This document shows, one piece after another, positions 2,652-24,023 of a stretch of DNA of 64,000 nt; within the stretch, counting starts at the first letter, position 1, and every line of letters starts with the position of its first letter. The translations under genes and the position numbers were made by a program. Location: positions 1 through 64,000 of the forward strand of contig NZ_JAKZLA010000009.1 of NCBI RefSeq assembly GCF_022808775.1, given 5' to 3'. The notes beneath the pieces were generated by a model. It saw only the letters and a list, made by a program, of their open reading frames with translations, was not told the DNA's origin and searched no databases. This stretch comes from Geothrix terrae. GTDB taxonomy: Bacteria > Acidobacteriota > Holophagae > Holophagales > Holophagaceae.

Positions 2652-3350
2652 ATGGAACACCTCGCCATCCTGCGCGACCTGCAAGCCACCCTGGACTATC
2701 TTCGGACCATTGAGCGCGACCTGTCGGCCCTGCCTCCTGATCTGGCGGTCCTGGACACTCGGCTCAAAGCCATCGAGAAGCAGACGGCGGAAAAGACCAA
2801 GGCCCTGGATTCGGCCCGGATCCACATCCAGGTGAAGACCAAGGAATTGGCCCAAGCCCAGAAGGAAGAAGACCGGGCCCGCGCCGCCGTGAAGACCACC
2901 AGCCAGAAGGTGCAGTACGCGGCAGCCATCCGCGAGCTGGACGAGAAAGAGCGGCTGAAGGCCTCCATCGCCAAGCCCCTGAAGGCCCTGGAGACCGAGG
3001 CGAAGGCCCTGGAGCAGGCCCTGGAGGCTCTGGAAGCCGAGCGGGCCACCCTCAAGGTGAAGTTCGACGAGCTCCACTCGGTGTTCCTGGGCGAGCATGC
3101 CAACCAGGTGGAGGGACGCAAGCAGCTCCAGACCAAGCAGGCGCAACTGGAAGCGAAGCTCTCGGCTCCGGAGGTCACGCGCTTCCATCGGCTCGCCGGC
3201 GCCCGTCAGGGACGGGTGGTGGTGCCCGTGGAGAACGGCGCCTGCACCGGCTGCCACGTCAAGCTGCGCGGCCCCTTCCTCTTCCAGCTGAAGGAGGCCA
3301 AGGGTCCCGTGGCCTGCGAATCCTGCCAGCGGATTCTCTTCCTGCCGTGA
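2652..3350 (+). CDS. Coiled-coil protein with C4-type zinc ribbon
   Basis: 232 residues. Residues ~1-180 are a long Lys/Glu/Ala-rich helical coiled coil. The C-terminus carries two CxxC knuckles (CTGC and CESC about 25 residues apart) in the layout of the C4-type zinc-ribbon family (DUF164/CT398-like). Family members are proposed to bind nucleic acid or act as scaffolds, but no reaction is known. The TGA overlaps the GTG start of yggS (GTGA), so the pair is translationally coupled. Confidence 0.85.
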   Translation: MEHLAILRDLQATLDYLRTIERDLSALPPDLAVLDTRLKAIEKQTAEKTKALDSARIHIQVKTKELAQAQKEEDRARAAVKTTSQKVQYAAAIRELDEKERLKASIAKPLKALETEAKALEQALEALEAERATLKVKFDELHSVFLGEHANQVEGRKQLQTKQAQLEAKLSAPEVTRFHRLAGARQGRVVVPVENGACTGCHVKLRGPFLFQLKEAKGPVACESCQRILFLP

Positions 3351-4018
3351 GCCTGGCGGACCGGGTCGAGGCCCTGCAGGCCCGCATCACCCGCGCCTGC
3401 GAGGCTGGGAGCCGGGATCCCGGAAGCATCGAACTCCTGCCCGTGTCGAAGAAGCAGCCGCTCGCGCTGATCCAGGAGGCCGCCGCCCTCGGTTTCACGC
3501 GGTTCGGCGAGAACTACGTGCAGGAAGGCGCCGACAAGGCTGTGGTCCTGCCCGATCTGGCCTTCATCCTCCTCGGCCCGCTCCAGCGCAACAAGGTCAG
3601 GCCCGCCCTCCAGCACTTCGCGGAAATCCAGAGCCTGGACCGCCCCGAGCTGGCGGAACGCCTGCGCCGGCTGGCGGAGGAGCTCCAGGTGGTGCGCCCC
3701 GTCTGGATCCAGGTGGACCTCTGGAACGAAGCCACCAAGCTCGGCGGCTGCGCCGAGGCGGATCTGCCCGCCTTGATCGGGGCCCTGGGCGACGATCCCC
3801 GCTTGCCCCTGCGCGGGCTCATGGCCATCCCCCCGCCGGAAGACGACGGCGCCTTCGCCCAGCTTGCGGCCCTGCGGGACCGGCTGCAGCAGGATCTGGG
3901 CCGGCCCCTGCGCCTCAGCATGGGCATGAGCGCCGACCTGGAGGCGGCCATCGCCGCGGGATCGGACCAGATCCGCATCGGCACTGCGTTCTTCGGCGAG
4001 CGGGTGTACGCCCGGTGA
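3347..4018 (+). CDS. yggS: YggS-family pyridoxal phosphate homeostasis protein
   Basis: 223-residue TIM-barrel PLP-binding protein of the YggS/PLPBP family, which buffers intracellular PLP and affects amino-acid pools. PLP-lysine context: ELLPVSKKQPLALIQEA near residues 29-45. The FGENYVQEG motif and the C-terminal MGMSADLEAAIAAGSDQIRIGTAFFG phosphate-binding region are present. GTG start overlapping the previous stop. Slightly shorter than many homologues (~230). Confidence 0.93.
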   Translation: MSLADRVEALQARITRACEAGSRDPGSIELLPVSKKQPLALIQEAAALGFTRFGENYVQEGADKAVVLPDLAFILLGPLQRNKVRPALQHFAEIQSLDRPELAERLRRLAEELQVVRPVWIQVDLWNEATKLGGCAEADLPALIGALGDDPRLPLRGLMAIPPPEDDGAFAQLAALRDRLQQDLGRPLRLSMGMSADLEAAIAAGSDQIRIGTAFFGERVYAR

Positions 4019-4095
4019 GCCATCCTGTCCGGAGGTAGGGCCTCGCGGCCCTGCCCGCTTCGTGGTTCGATGATTCCTTCGTCCCCGGAGTCCCC

Positions 4096-4518
4096 ATGAC
4101 CACGATCAAGACCGCCACGGCCTCGCTGCCCGTCTCCGCTGAAGCGCTGTACGCCTTCCTCTCGGACCTGTCGAAGCACCGCGCCTTCCTGGAACCGGCC
4201 GCCATGAACTTCCAGGGGGAAGCCGACCGGCACAGCTACGTCATCGAGGTCATGGGCATGAAGATGCCCCAGGAGCTGGTGGTGAAGGAGCGTGTGCCCG
4301 GCCAGCGGGTGGTGCTGGTGCCCGGCGCGAAGAAGATGTTCGACCACGAGCTGCGCTTCGAGATCGTCCCGGCCGGCGAAGGCTGCACCCTGCGCCTGGT
4401 GGACGAGGCCGACATCCCCATGATGATGGCCATGATGGGCGCCGAGAAGCTCCTCCAGGCCCAGCTGGACAGCGGCCTGGCCCGCATCCAGGAGCTGGCG
4501 GCCAGCGGAACCCTTTAA
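4096..4518 (+). CDS. SRPBCC-fold (START-like) protein
   Basis: 140 residues with the polyketide-cyclase/START-like pattern. It opens with ATASLPVSAEALYAFLSDL, followed by alternating beta strands and a long C-terminal helix (AEKLLQAQLDSGLARIQEL). Such proteins bind hydrophobic ligands or lipids, but the ligand cannot be read from sequence. It stands alone between yggS and a repeat copy. Family membership is fairly certain and function is open. Confidence 0.7.
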   Translation: MTTIKTATASLPVSAEALYAFLSDLSKHRAFLEPAAMNFQGEADRHSYVIEVMGMKMPQELVVKERVPGQRVVLVPGAKKMFDHELRFEIVPAGEGCTLRLVDEADIPMMMAMMGAEKLLQAQLDSGLARIQELAASGTL

Positions 4519-4603
4519 ACACCCGCAGAGGATGCGGAGGATGAGCCTTTGCCTTCTCCGTATCCTCCGCTTCCTCAGCGATCTCCGCGAAAGTTTTTAT
4601 CTT
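4519..4603. repeat. Dispersed intergenic palindromic repeat, copy A
   Basis: Built of GAGGATGCGGAGGAT and the complementary TCCTCCGC...TCTCCGCGAAAG, so the transcript can fold back on itself. It begins right after a stop codon. Related copies are at 47847-47960, 50040-50155 and 57110-57225. Confidence 0.65.
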
Positions 4604-21599: not shown

Positions 21600-21800
21600 A
21601 TGCACATGGATGCCAGCGTTCGACAGCACAACCCCGCCTTCTGGACCACCGCCGAGCGGCTGCACGAGGTCTTCAACCAGCTCGAATCCAAGATGAGCGC
21701 CTCCCCGCGCGGCCTCGCCGTCCTCCGCCAGGTCCAGGCCCTCGAAGCCGAACTCGAGGCCGAGGTCATGCACCGCAGCCATCGGACCTTCGCGGCCTAA
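21600..21800 (+). CDS. Small helical protein of unknown function
   Basis: 66 residues, mostly helical (RLHEVFNQLESKM, LAVLRQVQALEAELEAEVM), with no signal or membrane segment. GGAG lies 5 bases before the ATG at 21600. It sits alone, with a dyad-rich leader upstream and a strong terminator downstream, so it is probably a separately regulated real gene. Family not recognised. Confidence 0.6.
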   Translation: MHMDASVRQHNPAFWTTAERLHEVFNQLESKMSASPRGLAVLRQVQALEAELEAEVMHRSHRTFAA

Positions 21801-21859: not shown

Positions 21860-23599
21860 TTATGGCTTCTTCATCTGGAAGGTGAAGGTCTTCCAGGGGC
21901 CATCCAGCGGCACATGCGTCTCGCCCGACCAGCCCGAGTCCGGATCCTCACAGCGGATCACCAAGTGCGCCCCGGCTTCTGAAGTGTCCAAGACCACGTT
22001 CGGCCTGGATTCGATCCAGACCTCCGGTCTGGTGCTGATTCCTCCCTGCGGAAGGCCGATGTGGATGGTCCCGAGCACGCGATCAGCTTCGGATCGGACC
22101 TCCGTGAGGAGGCCCCCCCTGTGGCTGGCGCGCAGCGTGAGGATCACCCGCCCCTTGGCGCCGCGAAGCACCCCTTGGACTTCGCCCTCGGCCAGCGGAG
22201 CCTCCGGCTGCACGGCCTTCGCGGCCAGCACATCCATCACCAGCGCCCGGTAGCGGGTGGCCTCCTCGGTGATGCGCCCCTCGTCCAGGGCCTTTTCGCC
22301 GCAGTTGTAGGCGGCCACCGCCTTCTGGACGTCCCCCTGGTAGCGGTCCAGCAGGAAGCGCAGGTACTTCGCGCCGGCCGCCATGATCTGGGCGGGATCG
22401 TCCAGGTCCATCGCGCCGTATTTCCGGGCTGTCTCGGGCATGACCTGGAGCAACCCCGTGGCGCCCCGGGGGCTCTTGGCCTTGGCGTTGAAGCCGCTCT
22501 CCACCCAGGCCATGCTGCGGAGCAGCTGGGGATCCAGGCCCTCGCGGACCGCCAGGGCATCCAATTGGGCGATCGCCGCGGCCGGAGCCCCGATGGGTGG
22601 GAACGCCGGAGCCGCCGCCCGCAGGGCGAGCGCCAGGCCGGGGATCAGCAGGAGGGCCAGGGTGCCTCCGAGGGGGCCCCTGACAGGTTTCGGAGAGAGC
22701 AGACGCTCGATGCGCGTGAGCAGATGTCCTCCTCGGGCCGCGAGGGCCGGGAACAACAGGTGGGGAAAGGGTCGCTGGAGGTCGTCCAGCGCGTTGAGGG
22801 CCAAGGCCAGGCGCCGCGGATCGCCGAGCATCTCGGCCGCCAGGTCATCGGAGAGCTCTTCGCGTTCAGCCCGGATCCTGGCCGAAATCCACCAGACGGC
22901 GGGATGGAAGAAGAGGAGGGTCTCCGCGATGCCCTGGAGGAGGTTGGCCAGGTAGTCCAGGCGGCGCACGTGAGCCAATTCATGGGCCAGGAGGGCCTCA
23001 AGGTAGCCAGGCGGGAGGCCCGTGAGCAGGGTCGCCGGCAGGAGCACCACTGGCTTCCAGAGCCCGAGGGCCACGGGCGATTGGCCCTGCCCTACCAGGA
23101 GAAGCCGGACCTTGCGCAGGATTCCCAGGCGTCGGGCCAGATCATCGAGCCTGCCCTGCCAGTCGCGGGGGGCCGGGACGCCCCTCCGCTTCCAGCCCAG
23201 GCTGAGGGCATACCCGCCACCCAGGCGAACGGCCATGAGACTCGCTCCCACCGCCCAGAGAACCACCAGGAGGGGCAGACGGGGCTGGAGCGCGGCCTCC
23301 AGCCGCACCAGCAGGGGTCTGGAGGCCCTGTCCGCCCGGGGCAGGAACGCGGCCGGGCCGCCTTGCGCGACTTCGGCCACCTGGATCGAACTGGCCCCCA
23401 GCGGGGCCGCACGGTGGAAGTGCCAGGCCGTGGCCGCAGGCAGCCCCAAACAGAGAGCCAGGATCAGGCCATTCATGGCGTGCCGGGCGCGACCTCGGAA
23501 AACGAGCCCGCCCAGGGCCGCCAAGGCCGCCAGCAGGCCGTCCTCCCAGAGGGCGTGGACGAGGGCCCATCCCAGGAGCTGCACGACGGCGGCCATCAC
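21860..23599 (-). CDS. BlaR1-like M56 membrane peptidase fused to a lytic transglycosylase
   Basis: 579 residues. Residues 1-~330 are a BlaR1/MecR1-type zinc peptidase: several membrane helices, HELAH at 206-210, and a downstream glutamate in EREELSDDLA. Residues ~345-455 are a GH23 (SLT) lytic transglycosylase with catalytic Glu in AWVESGFN (367), GLLQVMP and AYNCGE. Residues 460-579 are a beta-rich region of unknown role. BlaR1 proteins normally carry a penicillin-binding sensor at this end. The ATG overlaps the blaI-like stop (ATGA), so the two are co-translated. Likely role (inference): senses or remodels peptidoglycan and relieves repression by the BlaI partner. Confidence 0.9.
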   Translation of the reverse strand: MMAAVVQLLGWALVHALWEDGLLAALAALGGLVFRGRARHAMNGLILALCLGLPAATAWHFHRAAPLGASSIQVAEVAQGGPAAFLPRADRASRPLLVRLEAALQPRLPLLVVLWAVGASLMAVRLGGGYALSLGWKRRGVPAPRDWQGRLDDLARRLGILRKVRLLLVGQGQSPVALGLWKPVVLLPATLLTGLPPGYLEALLAHELAHVRRLDYLANLLQGIAETLLFFHPAVWWISARIRAEREELSDDLAAEMLGDPRRLALALNALDDLQRPFPHLLFPALAARGGHLLTRIERLLSPKPVRGPLGGTLALLLIPGLALALRAAAPAFPPIGAPAAAIAQLDALAVREGLDPQLLRSMAWVESGFNAKAKSPRGATGLLQVMPETARKYGAMDLDDPAQIMAAGAKYLRFLLDRYQGDVQKAVAAYNCGEKALDEGRITEEATRYRALVMDVLAAKAVQPEAPLAEGEVQGVLRGAKGRVILTLRASHRGGLLTEVRSEADRVLGTIHIGLPQGGISTRPEVWIESRPNVVLDTSEAGAHLVIRCEDPDSGWSGETHVPLDGPWKTFTFQMKKP

Positions 23600-23967
23600 T
23601 CCTCCTTGCCCAGCAGCTCGCGGATGCGGGCCTTTTCTTCGGGACTGACGGGGCCGGAGCGGAGAGCCGCCAGCACCAGCGCGGCGGCGGACCCCCCGAA
23701 GAGGCGTTCGGTCAGGTCGGCCACCAGGCCCCCCTCCATGGCCGCCCGGCTGTGAGCCGGGGCGTAGACATGGCTGCGCTGCCGCTCGTCCCGGGTCACC
23801 AGGCCCTTGTCCAGCATCACCTGGAGCATCCGCAGGACGCCGGTGTAGGCGTACTCCTCCGTGAGGTTCAGGCGGGCATGCACCTCCTTCACGGTGGACG
23901 GCCCCAGGTCCCAGAGGACTCGCAGGAACTTGAGCTCCACGTCGGTCGGCTTGATCGGTCGCTTCAT
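23596..23967 (-). CDS. BlaI/MecI/CopY-family transcriptional repressor
   Basis: 123 residues. Winged-helix domain (PTDVELKFLRVLWDLGPSTVKEVHARL, AYTGVLRMLQVMLDKGLV) followed by the dimerisation helices. In the family the repressor is cleaved when its BlaR1 partner is activated. The ATG at 23967 opens the conserved domain; longer upstream reading adds unrelated sequence. A dyad operator lies just upstream, so autorepression of this two-gene operon is likely. Confidence 0.93.
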   Translation of the reverse strand: MKRPIKPTDVELKFLRVLWDLGPSTVKEVHARLNLTEEYAYTGVLRMLQVMLDKGLVTRDERQRSHVYAPAHSRAAMEGGLVADLTERLFGGSAAALVLAALRSGPVSPEEKARIRELLGKEE

Positions 23968-23974
23968 GGGGATC

Positions 23975-24006
23975 CTACACAAGATAGTGTAGACCATTTT
24001 GTGTAG
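23975..24006 (-). promoter_or_regulatory. BlaI-type operator array
   Basis: CTACAC-N6-GTGTAG (23975-23992) is a perfect dyad, and a third half-site GTGTAG lies at 24001-24006 in the same phase as the second. The TACA/TGTA core is typical of BlaI/MecI operators. It covers the predicted -10 box and start region of the repressor gene. Confidence 0.75.
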
Positions 24007-24023
24007 ATTCATCCCGTTGTCAA
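23996..24023 (-). promoter_or_regulatory. Promoter of the blaI-like / M56 operon
   Basis: On the minus strand, TTGACA (24018-24023) is followed after 16 bases by CAAAAT (23996-24001). The -35 box is perfect and the -10 box matches 4 of 6. It overlaps the operator half-sites. Confidence 0.6.

Follow-up and report, generated by a model that had tools for sequence, protein, structure and literature searches.

The stretch of DNA analysed here, the first 64,000 nucleotides of contig NZ_JAKZLA010000009.1 of Geothrix terrae (assembly GCF_022808775.1; hereafter the window), carries on its minus strand an operon in which a blaI-type repressor gene is followed by a gene for a 579-residue protein, M56-SLT, that joins a membrane protease of the BlaR1 type to a lytic transglycosylase (SLT) domain and a C-terminal beta-sandwich. 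The window is part of contig C14 of the source genome (G000; 3.43 Mb, 97.7% complete), and G- and L-numbers below denote the genomes and loci compared. The operon and its promoter comprise the following features:

23596..23967, minus strand: blaI-type repressor gene (123 aa; winged helix, Penicillinase_R, PF03965)
21860..23599, minus strand: M56-SLT fusion gene (579 aa; BlaR1-type membrane protease, transglycosylase ectodomain, beta-sandwich)
22844..23275, minus strand: M56 peptidase domain (residues 109-252, PF05569)
22970..22984, minus strand: HELAH zinc motif (residues 206-210)
22616..22666, minus strand: last transmembrane helix, joining protease to ectodomain (residues 312-328; from hydropathy and a helix in the model)
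22283..22552, minus strand: SLT (lytic transglycosylase) domain (residues 350-439, PF01464)
22499..22501, minus strand: codon for Glu367, the presumed catalytic residue (invariant in a 29-sequence alignment)
21863..22192, minus strand: C-terminal beta-sandwich domain (residues 470-579, no Pfam match)
23976..23991, no strand assigned: predicted operator dyad 1, reading TACACTATCTTGTGTA on the minus strand (in a conserved block upstream of blaI in same-genus orthologues)
23990..24005, no strand assigned: predicted operator dyad 2, reading TACACAAAATGGTCTA on the minus strand (at the same place in same-genus orthologues)
24018..24023, minus strand: −35-like TTGACA of the blaI promoter (from the sequence)

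In Pfam comparisons, the blaI product scored 86.4 bits against PF03965 (cut-off 22.6), and the protease and transglycosylase segments of its neighbour scored 74.5 bits against PF05569 (cut-off 31) and 84.4 bits against PF01464 (cut-off 21.3), which places them in the Penicillinase_R, M56 and SLT families respectively. The end of blaI overlaps the start of the M56-SLT gene (...GAGTGATGG...), with the BlaI stop TGA lying inside the GTG/ATG start, and the M56-SLT frame then runs without interruption over 579 codons. A preliminary description of this DNA, made from the sequence alone, had proposed a fusion of an M56 protease with a GH23-type transglycosylase beside blaI; the two Pfam matches in a single open reading frame, together with HELAH at 206-210 and Glu367, confirm it. 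The fusion is a conserved single frame in Holophagaceae, in Geothrix and other genera, and the full-length single-frame orthologues in other genomes of the order rule out a chance fusion or an assembly or frame error. They also answer the second objection that the preliminary description had named, that the two domains might be separate proteins. PADLOC models gave no relevant match, and no published description of an M56-SLT fusion was found among the titles and abstract openings listed for the literature searched, which leaves out most subscription papers.

The protease half closely resembles that of BlaR1. In the 29-sequence alignment (from which L027, with a broken frame, was left out and in which L034 starts late), H206, E207, H210, E247, D251 and R296 are invariant. 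Residues 171-261 align with residues 166-256 of BlaR1, so that H206, E207, H210 and D251 fall on BlaR1 H201, E202, H205 and D246, which the available text of PMC9834060 describes along with R294; judged from position only, E247 and R296 probably correspond to BlaR1 E242 and R294. The same text has the ectodomain of BlaR1 signalling to its M56 domain, which cuts BlaI directly, and gives Asn101-Phe102 as the scissile pair in Staphylococcus aureus BlaI. The protease residues needed for such direct cleavage are conserved in M56-SLT. Moreover, residues 9-291 of the model of the whole protein (mean predicted local distance difference test score, pLDDT, 79.8; predicted template modelling score 0.52) showed the BlaR1-type membrane fold when aligned with BlaR1 structure 8exs (Z 19.1, root-mean-square deviation 3.5, 247 residues aligned). 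What M56-SLT does not share with BlaR1 is the penicillin-binding, class-D beta-lactamase-like sensor, since no transpeptidase or beta-lactamase match was found in the protein with Pfam; against the generic BlaR1 model NF000326 (blaR1_generic) it scored 43 bits, far under the cut-off of 400.

Behind the protease, the SLT domain has both the profile and the fold of lytic transglycosylases. Residues 333-467 of the model aligned with MltF (4oxv) with Z 16.7 and a root-mean-square deviation of 2.5 over 134 residues (Z about 16 for MltF/Slt), so that the fold whose absence would have spoken against the preliminary description is present. The domain thus has the SLT fold and active-site Glu of the family 1 lytic transglycosylases Slt, MltF, MltC and MltE, which we take to be GH23; unlike these, it is fused behind a membrane protease, and its activity is putative. 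Six of its residues (E367, S376, G382, Q385, Y431 and N432) are invariant in the 29-sequence alignment, and E367 aligns with the Glu of the RQESAF stretch of Pseudomonas aeruginosa Slt, E503 by chain numbering; the title of one publication calls Slt E503Q an inactive mutant. Among 18 same-genus sequences, mean pairwise identity was 0.81 in SLT, higher than in M56 (0.74) or the C-terminal domain (0.53), and nonsynonymous divergence (dN) in the SLT segment was far below synonymous divergence (dS) in four close pairs. With Glu367 and the motif residues invariant and the highest identity of all segments, a degenerate, non-catalytic SLT is not favoured. Because helix 312-328 separates protease and SLT and both folds align with their known counterparts, the SLT domain sits, in the model, after the last transmembrane helix, where BlaR1 carries its penicillin sensor. 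By the model and by analogy with BlaR1, this topology would place it in the periplasm. The arrangement put forward at the outset, a BlaR1-like protease with SLT in the sensor position and paired with BlaI, is therefore supported by Pfam, conservation and structural alignment alike.

The last ~110 residues, already described as a beta domain of unfamiliar type, have no Pfam match and, modelled alone, form a beta-sandwich with a mean pLDDT of 90.6. No PDB match was obtained at E ≤ 0.001 (best E 0.03), and the resemblance to sandwich domains of glycosidases was weak and insignificant. Across genera the SLT domain stays joined to the protease, and this C-terminal domain varies or is missing. Between G000 and its close relatives G004 and G013, dS in the C-terminal domain is 0.84-1.07, against ~0.12-0.40 in the other segments, as if the domain had been exchanged by recombination.

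The fusion was found in 21 of 47 same-genus genomes (one, G016, with a fragment) and in several other genera among the 77 genomes of the order searched; orthologues in Geothrix paludis and Geothrix sp. SG200 are 83-84% identical. Linkage to blaI is nearly constant, a BlaI match being present in 29 of the 30 best orthologous loci kept, and the exception (L015) starts at a contig edge. SLT lies in the same open frame in 42 of 132 M56 loci examined, which were chosen by similarity to the query and of which at least nine duplicate another locus. A domain search across the phylum, which the preliminary description had named as a check, turned up M56-SLT beside BlaI in three distant genomes (G366, G132 and G288), there without the beta domain; it covered 396 genomes with up to three candidates scored in each, which gives no basis for calling the fusion rare. 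Among the best 80 of 563 M56 loci on GTDB contigs, SLT is present in eight, all in Geothrix, Holophagaceae or Acidobacteria records, and absent in 72. A quick tree of M56 domains (123 rows, with nine duplicate loci taken out) required five label changes, at least two of them forced, and gave long-branch warnings. In this tree an M56 protein without SLT (L170/L058, from G050 of genus g3) groups among SLT-bearing ones; on visual inspection its tail looks like a duplicated beta domain.

Upstream of blaI, the two predicted operator dyads are 16 bp each with 2 bp in common, giving a half-site phase of 14 bp, and both are conserved in same-genus loci. The repressor gene thus has a dyad in its own promoter. 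Operators known for BlaI and MecI belong to the TACA/TGTA type. The CTACAC-N6-GTGTAG site predicted earlier proved real, TACAC-N6-GTGTA occurring once in the genome, at 23976-23991. Of 20 same-genus loci, 19 have the −35-like TTGACA in the 150 bp before blaI (TTGACG in L024); all nine loci of other genera lack it there, and four of these have TTGACG.

We scanned genomes for the 16-bp dyad TACACAAnnTTGTGTA with up to two mismatches, covering 18 of the 21 same-genus genomes with M56-SLT (G016, G027 and G032 were left out); the counts below refer to sites of this strength. G000 contains three sites, the two overlapping ones in the blaI promoter and a distant one (C8:289552) that starts 40 bp before a gene for a secreted-looking polysaccharide deacetylase of carbohydrate esterase family 4 (CE4), and G013 has the same set. 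Over the 18 genomes there were 48 sites, 34 in the blaI promoter, six upstream of the deacetylase gene and eight elsewhere. A reversed control pattern yielded 39 in the same genomes, so that the evidence lies in where the sites are and operator count was rejected as an argument. Of the eight sites elsewhere, one is in G008 and seven are copies of a single 16-mer, TACACCAATTTCTGTA, in G024 (contigs C10, C11 with two, C13, C21, C22 and C26; for two copies the distance to the start of the contig is 104 bases); the 16-mer may belong to a repeated or mobile element. Apart from this 16-mer, no site recurred before another gene in the 18 genomes, and a large regulon of strong sites was rejected on these scans. 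In a stricter scan of nine genomes at one mismatch, sites outside the blaI promoter were found once each in G011, G021 and G013, all upstream of the deacetylase gene; G012 had no TACACAAnnTTGTGTA site at one mismatch. By eye, the promoters of two paralogous BlaI genes of G000 carry TACGAA/TTCGTA instead, and the TACACAAnnTTGTGTA site therefore discriminates between repressors and points to the BlaI of the M56-SLT operon; cross-talk from the two paralogues is not favoured.

Deacetylase orthologues with at least 72% identity occur in six of the 47 genus genomes, all six of which have the M56-SLT gene (hypergeometric probability 0.005, uncorrected for kinship), and the dyad precedes all six; it precedes none of 19 lesser homologues examined, out of 42 lesser rows. 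PF01522 (Polysacc_deac_1) scored 65.9 bits in the G021 orthologue and 60.7 in that of G011 (cut-off 23.1), identifying them as CE4 enzymes. The G000 copy was compared with PDB sequences only, where its nearest relative is the peptidoglycan N-acetylglucosamine (GlcNAc) deacetylase 5o6y (E 1.6e-11), with a chitin deacetylase and PdaA coming next. The target has PF01522 and the TFDDG and NHTxTH stretches in common with the CE4 peptidoglycan GlcNAc deacetylases 5o6y and 4l1g, from which it differs in being preceded by BlaI-type operators linked to an M56-SLT sensor. By these sequence relationships peptidoglycan is the likely substrate.

The same pairing is seen, in a different arrangement, outside Geothrix. 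In genus g6 a deacetylase about 75% identical to the G021 protein is divergent from an adjoining blaI-M56-SLT pair, with a promoter in common in which GTAC half-sites recur every 14 bp; this holds for four loci in three genomes (G057, G058 and two loci of G059), in two of which the contig ends within SLT. The deacetylase gene of G056 (60% identical) is detached, on another contig, and its promoter contains this half-site array too. No operator lies upstream of the deacetylase genes of G055, G052 and G053, and no M56-SLT was found in these possibly incomplete genomes, as judged from order-search E-values in the case of G055 and, in the other two, from the one M56 locus examined in G052 and the three in G053. 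Overall, all 11 orthologues from sensor-bearing genomes are preceded by a dyad with at most one mismatch to TACA-N8-TGTA, as against none of three from genomes where no sensor was found and neither of two distant homologues. The case for the regulon is made by this recurrence, the genome-wide scans and the adjacency, not by single-site statistics. A fragmented deacetylase homologue was also noted in G068.

Taken together, we think it fairly probable that the operon encodes a proteolytic switch of the BlaR1/BlaI type in which the SLT ectodomain monitors the cell wall and induces its deacetylation. BlaI would repress the operon it belongs to and, in genomes that have it, a single distant gene encoding a secreted CE4 polysaccharide deacetylase. 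When SLT met altered peptidoglycan, the signal would travel along the last transmembrane helix to the M56 protease in the cytosol; cleavage of BlaI by this protease would derepress both the operon and the deacetylase gene. The deacetylase would then strip N-acetyl groups from the wall glycan, which muramidases or transglycosylases would attack less readily as a result. Judged from sequence, what M56-SLT senses seems to be the state of the wall and not antibiotics, and the predicted regulon is small, the operon itself plus one deacetylase, in a real, conserved variant of the BlaR1/BlaI system. The new element is that regulon, with an operator before a CE4 deacetylase gene. The coupling of wall contact to proteolytic derepression that had been suggested is plausible, and the deacetylase now offers a gene to probe it with. 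Of the wall-repair regulon also suggested, the tie to a wall-type enzyme stands; 'repair' is too specific, because the only recurrent target found other than the operon is a deacetylase, which would modify glycan strands and not mend them, and in 12 of the 18 same-genus genomes the module has sites only in the operon's own promoter.

M56-SLT resembles BlaR1-BlaI of S. aureus and MecR1-MecI in its protease, with matching catalytic residues and fold, and in the BlaI partner in the operon and the dyad in the repressor's own promoter. Unlike in BlaR1 and MecR1, SLT and a beta-sandwich take the place of the class-D beta-lactamase-like sensor (described for BlaR1 in the part of PMC7593790 available), and the recurrent target is a polysaccharide deacetylase instead of a beta-lactamase or PBP2a. 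As an extracytoplasmic sensor of wall attack connected through regulated proteolysis to output genes, the system would be analogous to RsiV-sigmaV of Bacillus subtilis, in which, according to the available text of PMC4183432, lysozyme is sensed and regulated proteolysis induces lysozyme-resistance genes. RsiV differs in being an anti-sigma factor that signal peptidase and RasP cleave, with lysozyme itself as ligand, and has no domain in common with M56-SLT.

Several observations weigh against the proposed switch. The same 12 of 18 Geothrix genomes have the sensor without a deacetylase site, so that the module persists without the target, and the number of TACACAAnnTTGTGTA sites by itself means nothing. 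The deacetylase match of G056 holds one in-frame TGA. G066 and G070 have deacetylase homologues (46-50% identity) without an operator although the sensor is present; these distant homologues may be paralogues. The five upstream regions matching the loose TACA-N8-TGTA with one mismatch are, taken singly, matched by 1-6% of shuffles. Finally, CE4 enzymes have further substrates, chitin and other polysaccharides among them.

In these 12 genomes without a deacetylase site the operon appears, by sites of the strength scanned, to regulate only itself, so SLT may also act as an effector. Taken further, the operon could be an autoregulated supply of a membrane-anchored transglycosylase, with the protease triggered otherwise, by membrane stress, the beta-sandwich or another protein. 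The conservation of SLT, higher than that of any other segment, and its intact motif residues agree with such a role, as does the restriction of sites to the operon's own promoter in those 12 genomes. We nevertheless hold this explanation unlikely, given that SLT is placed at the BlaR1 sensor position, that its fusion to the protease is retained from genus to genus, the beta-sandwich being variable or absent, and that the same operator type precedes a second wall-type enzyme. The ancestry in common with BlaR1 suggests instead that beta-lactams or other wall antibiotics might be sensed indirectly, through uncrosslinked nascent glycan that accumulates when penicillin-binding proteins are blocked and is degraded by Slt-type enzymes; such enzymes do degrade uncrosslinked nascent strands under beta-lactams. 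This seems to us decidedly improbable, because the protein has no penicillin-binding domain in Pfam, the sole operator found in G000 outside the blaI promoter precedes the deacetylase gene (no search for beta-lactamase genes was made) and no site other than the G024 16-mer recurred before other genes in the 18 genomes.

Least probable of all, and by our estimate very much so, is a regulon for a polysaccharide other than peptidoglycan, in which the deacetylase would act on a capsule or biofilm glycan and SLT would serve as a lectin-like sensor. CE4 substrates are many, chitin deacetylases are among the PDB matches, and the slight, insignificant likeness of the beta-sandwich to glycosidase domains could be read in this way; however, the closest solved relatives of the deacetylase are peptidoglycan GlcNAc deacetylases, and the SLT residues are those of active lytic transglycosylases. 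Returning to the wall-monitoring switch, a bolder version of it, which we regard as doubtful though somewhat less so than these rivals, is that the receptor senses the wall through its own enzymatic action: the M56 protease would be opened by turnover or stalling of the SLT active site on the glycan, and the induced deacetylase would make the glycan a poor SLT substrate, thereby ending the signal. If true, this would be a self-limiting loop with an enzyme as receptor and substrate chemistry as memory.

To our knowledge, many bacteria have M56 proteases with a BlaI partner, and the signals and targets of these proteases beyond beta-lactam resistance are mostly unknown. In the present system both ends can be named from sequence, a peptidoglycan-cutting-type ectodomain as candidate input and a single secreted deacetylase as candidate output, and therefore what non-penicillin relatives of BlaR1 sense becomes testable, in named Geothrix strains.

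Some minor features of related loci were also noted. In L016 (G029) an 833-bp insertion (about 667-1501) separates blaI from the M56-SLT gene; it is AT-rich-looking and contains an open frame whose small product would begin with a hydrophobic stretch and have many Cys residues at its C-terminus. In L025 (G070) a second blaI-M56 pair (3293-4530) directly follows the M56-SLT gene. Two other M56 proteins of G000 (C1:380613-381587 and C8:407025-407966; L002 and L001) bear different tails; by eye, one is similar to a TonB-type C-terminal domain, and the other is long, charged and proline-rich. The blaI promoters of these two are the TACGAA/TTCGTA ones mentioned above. In the window itself, a 66-aa open frame lies at 21600-21800 on the plus strand, between a ruvC-like gene and the M56-SLT gene.

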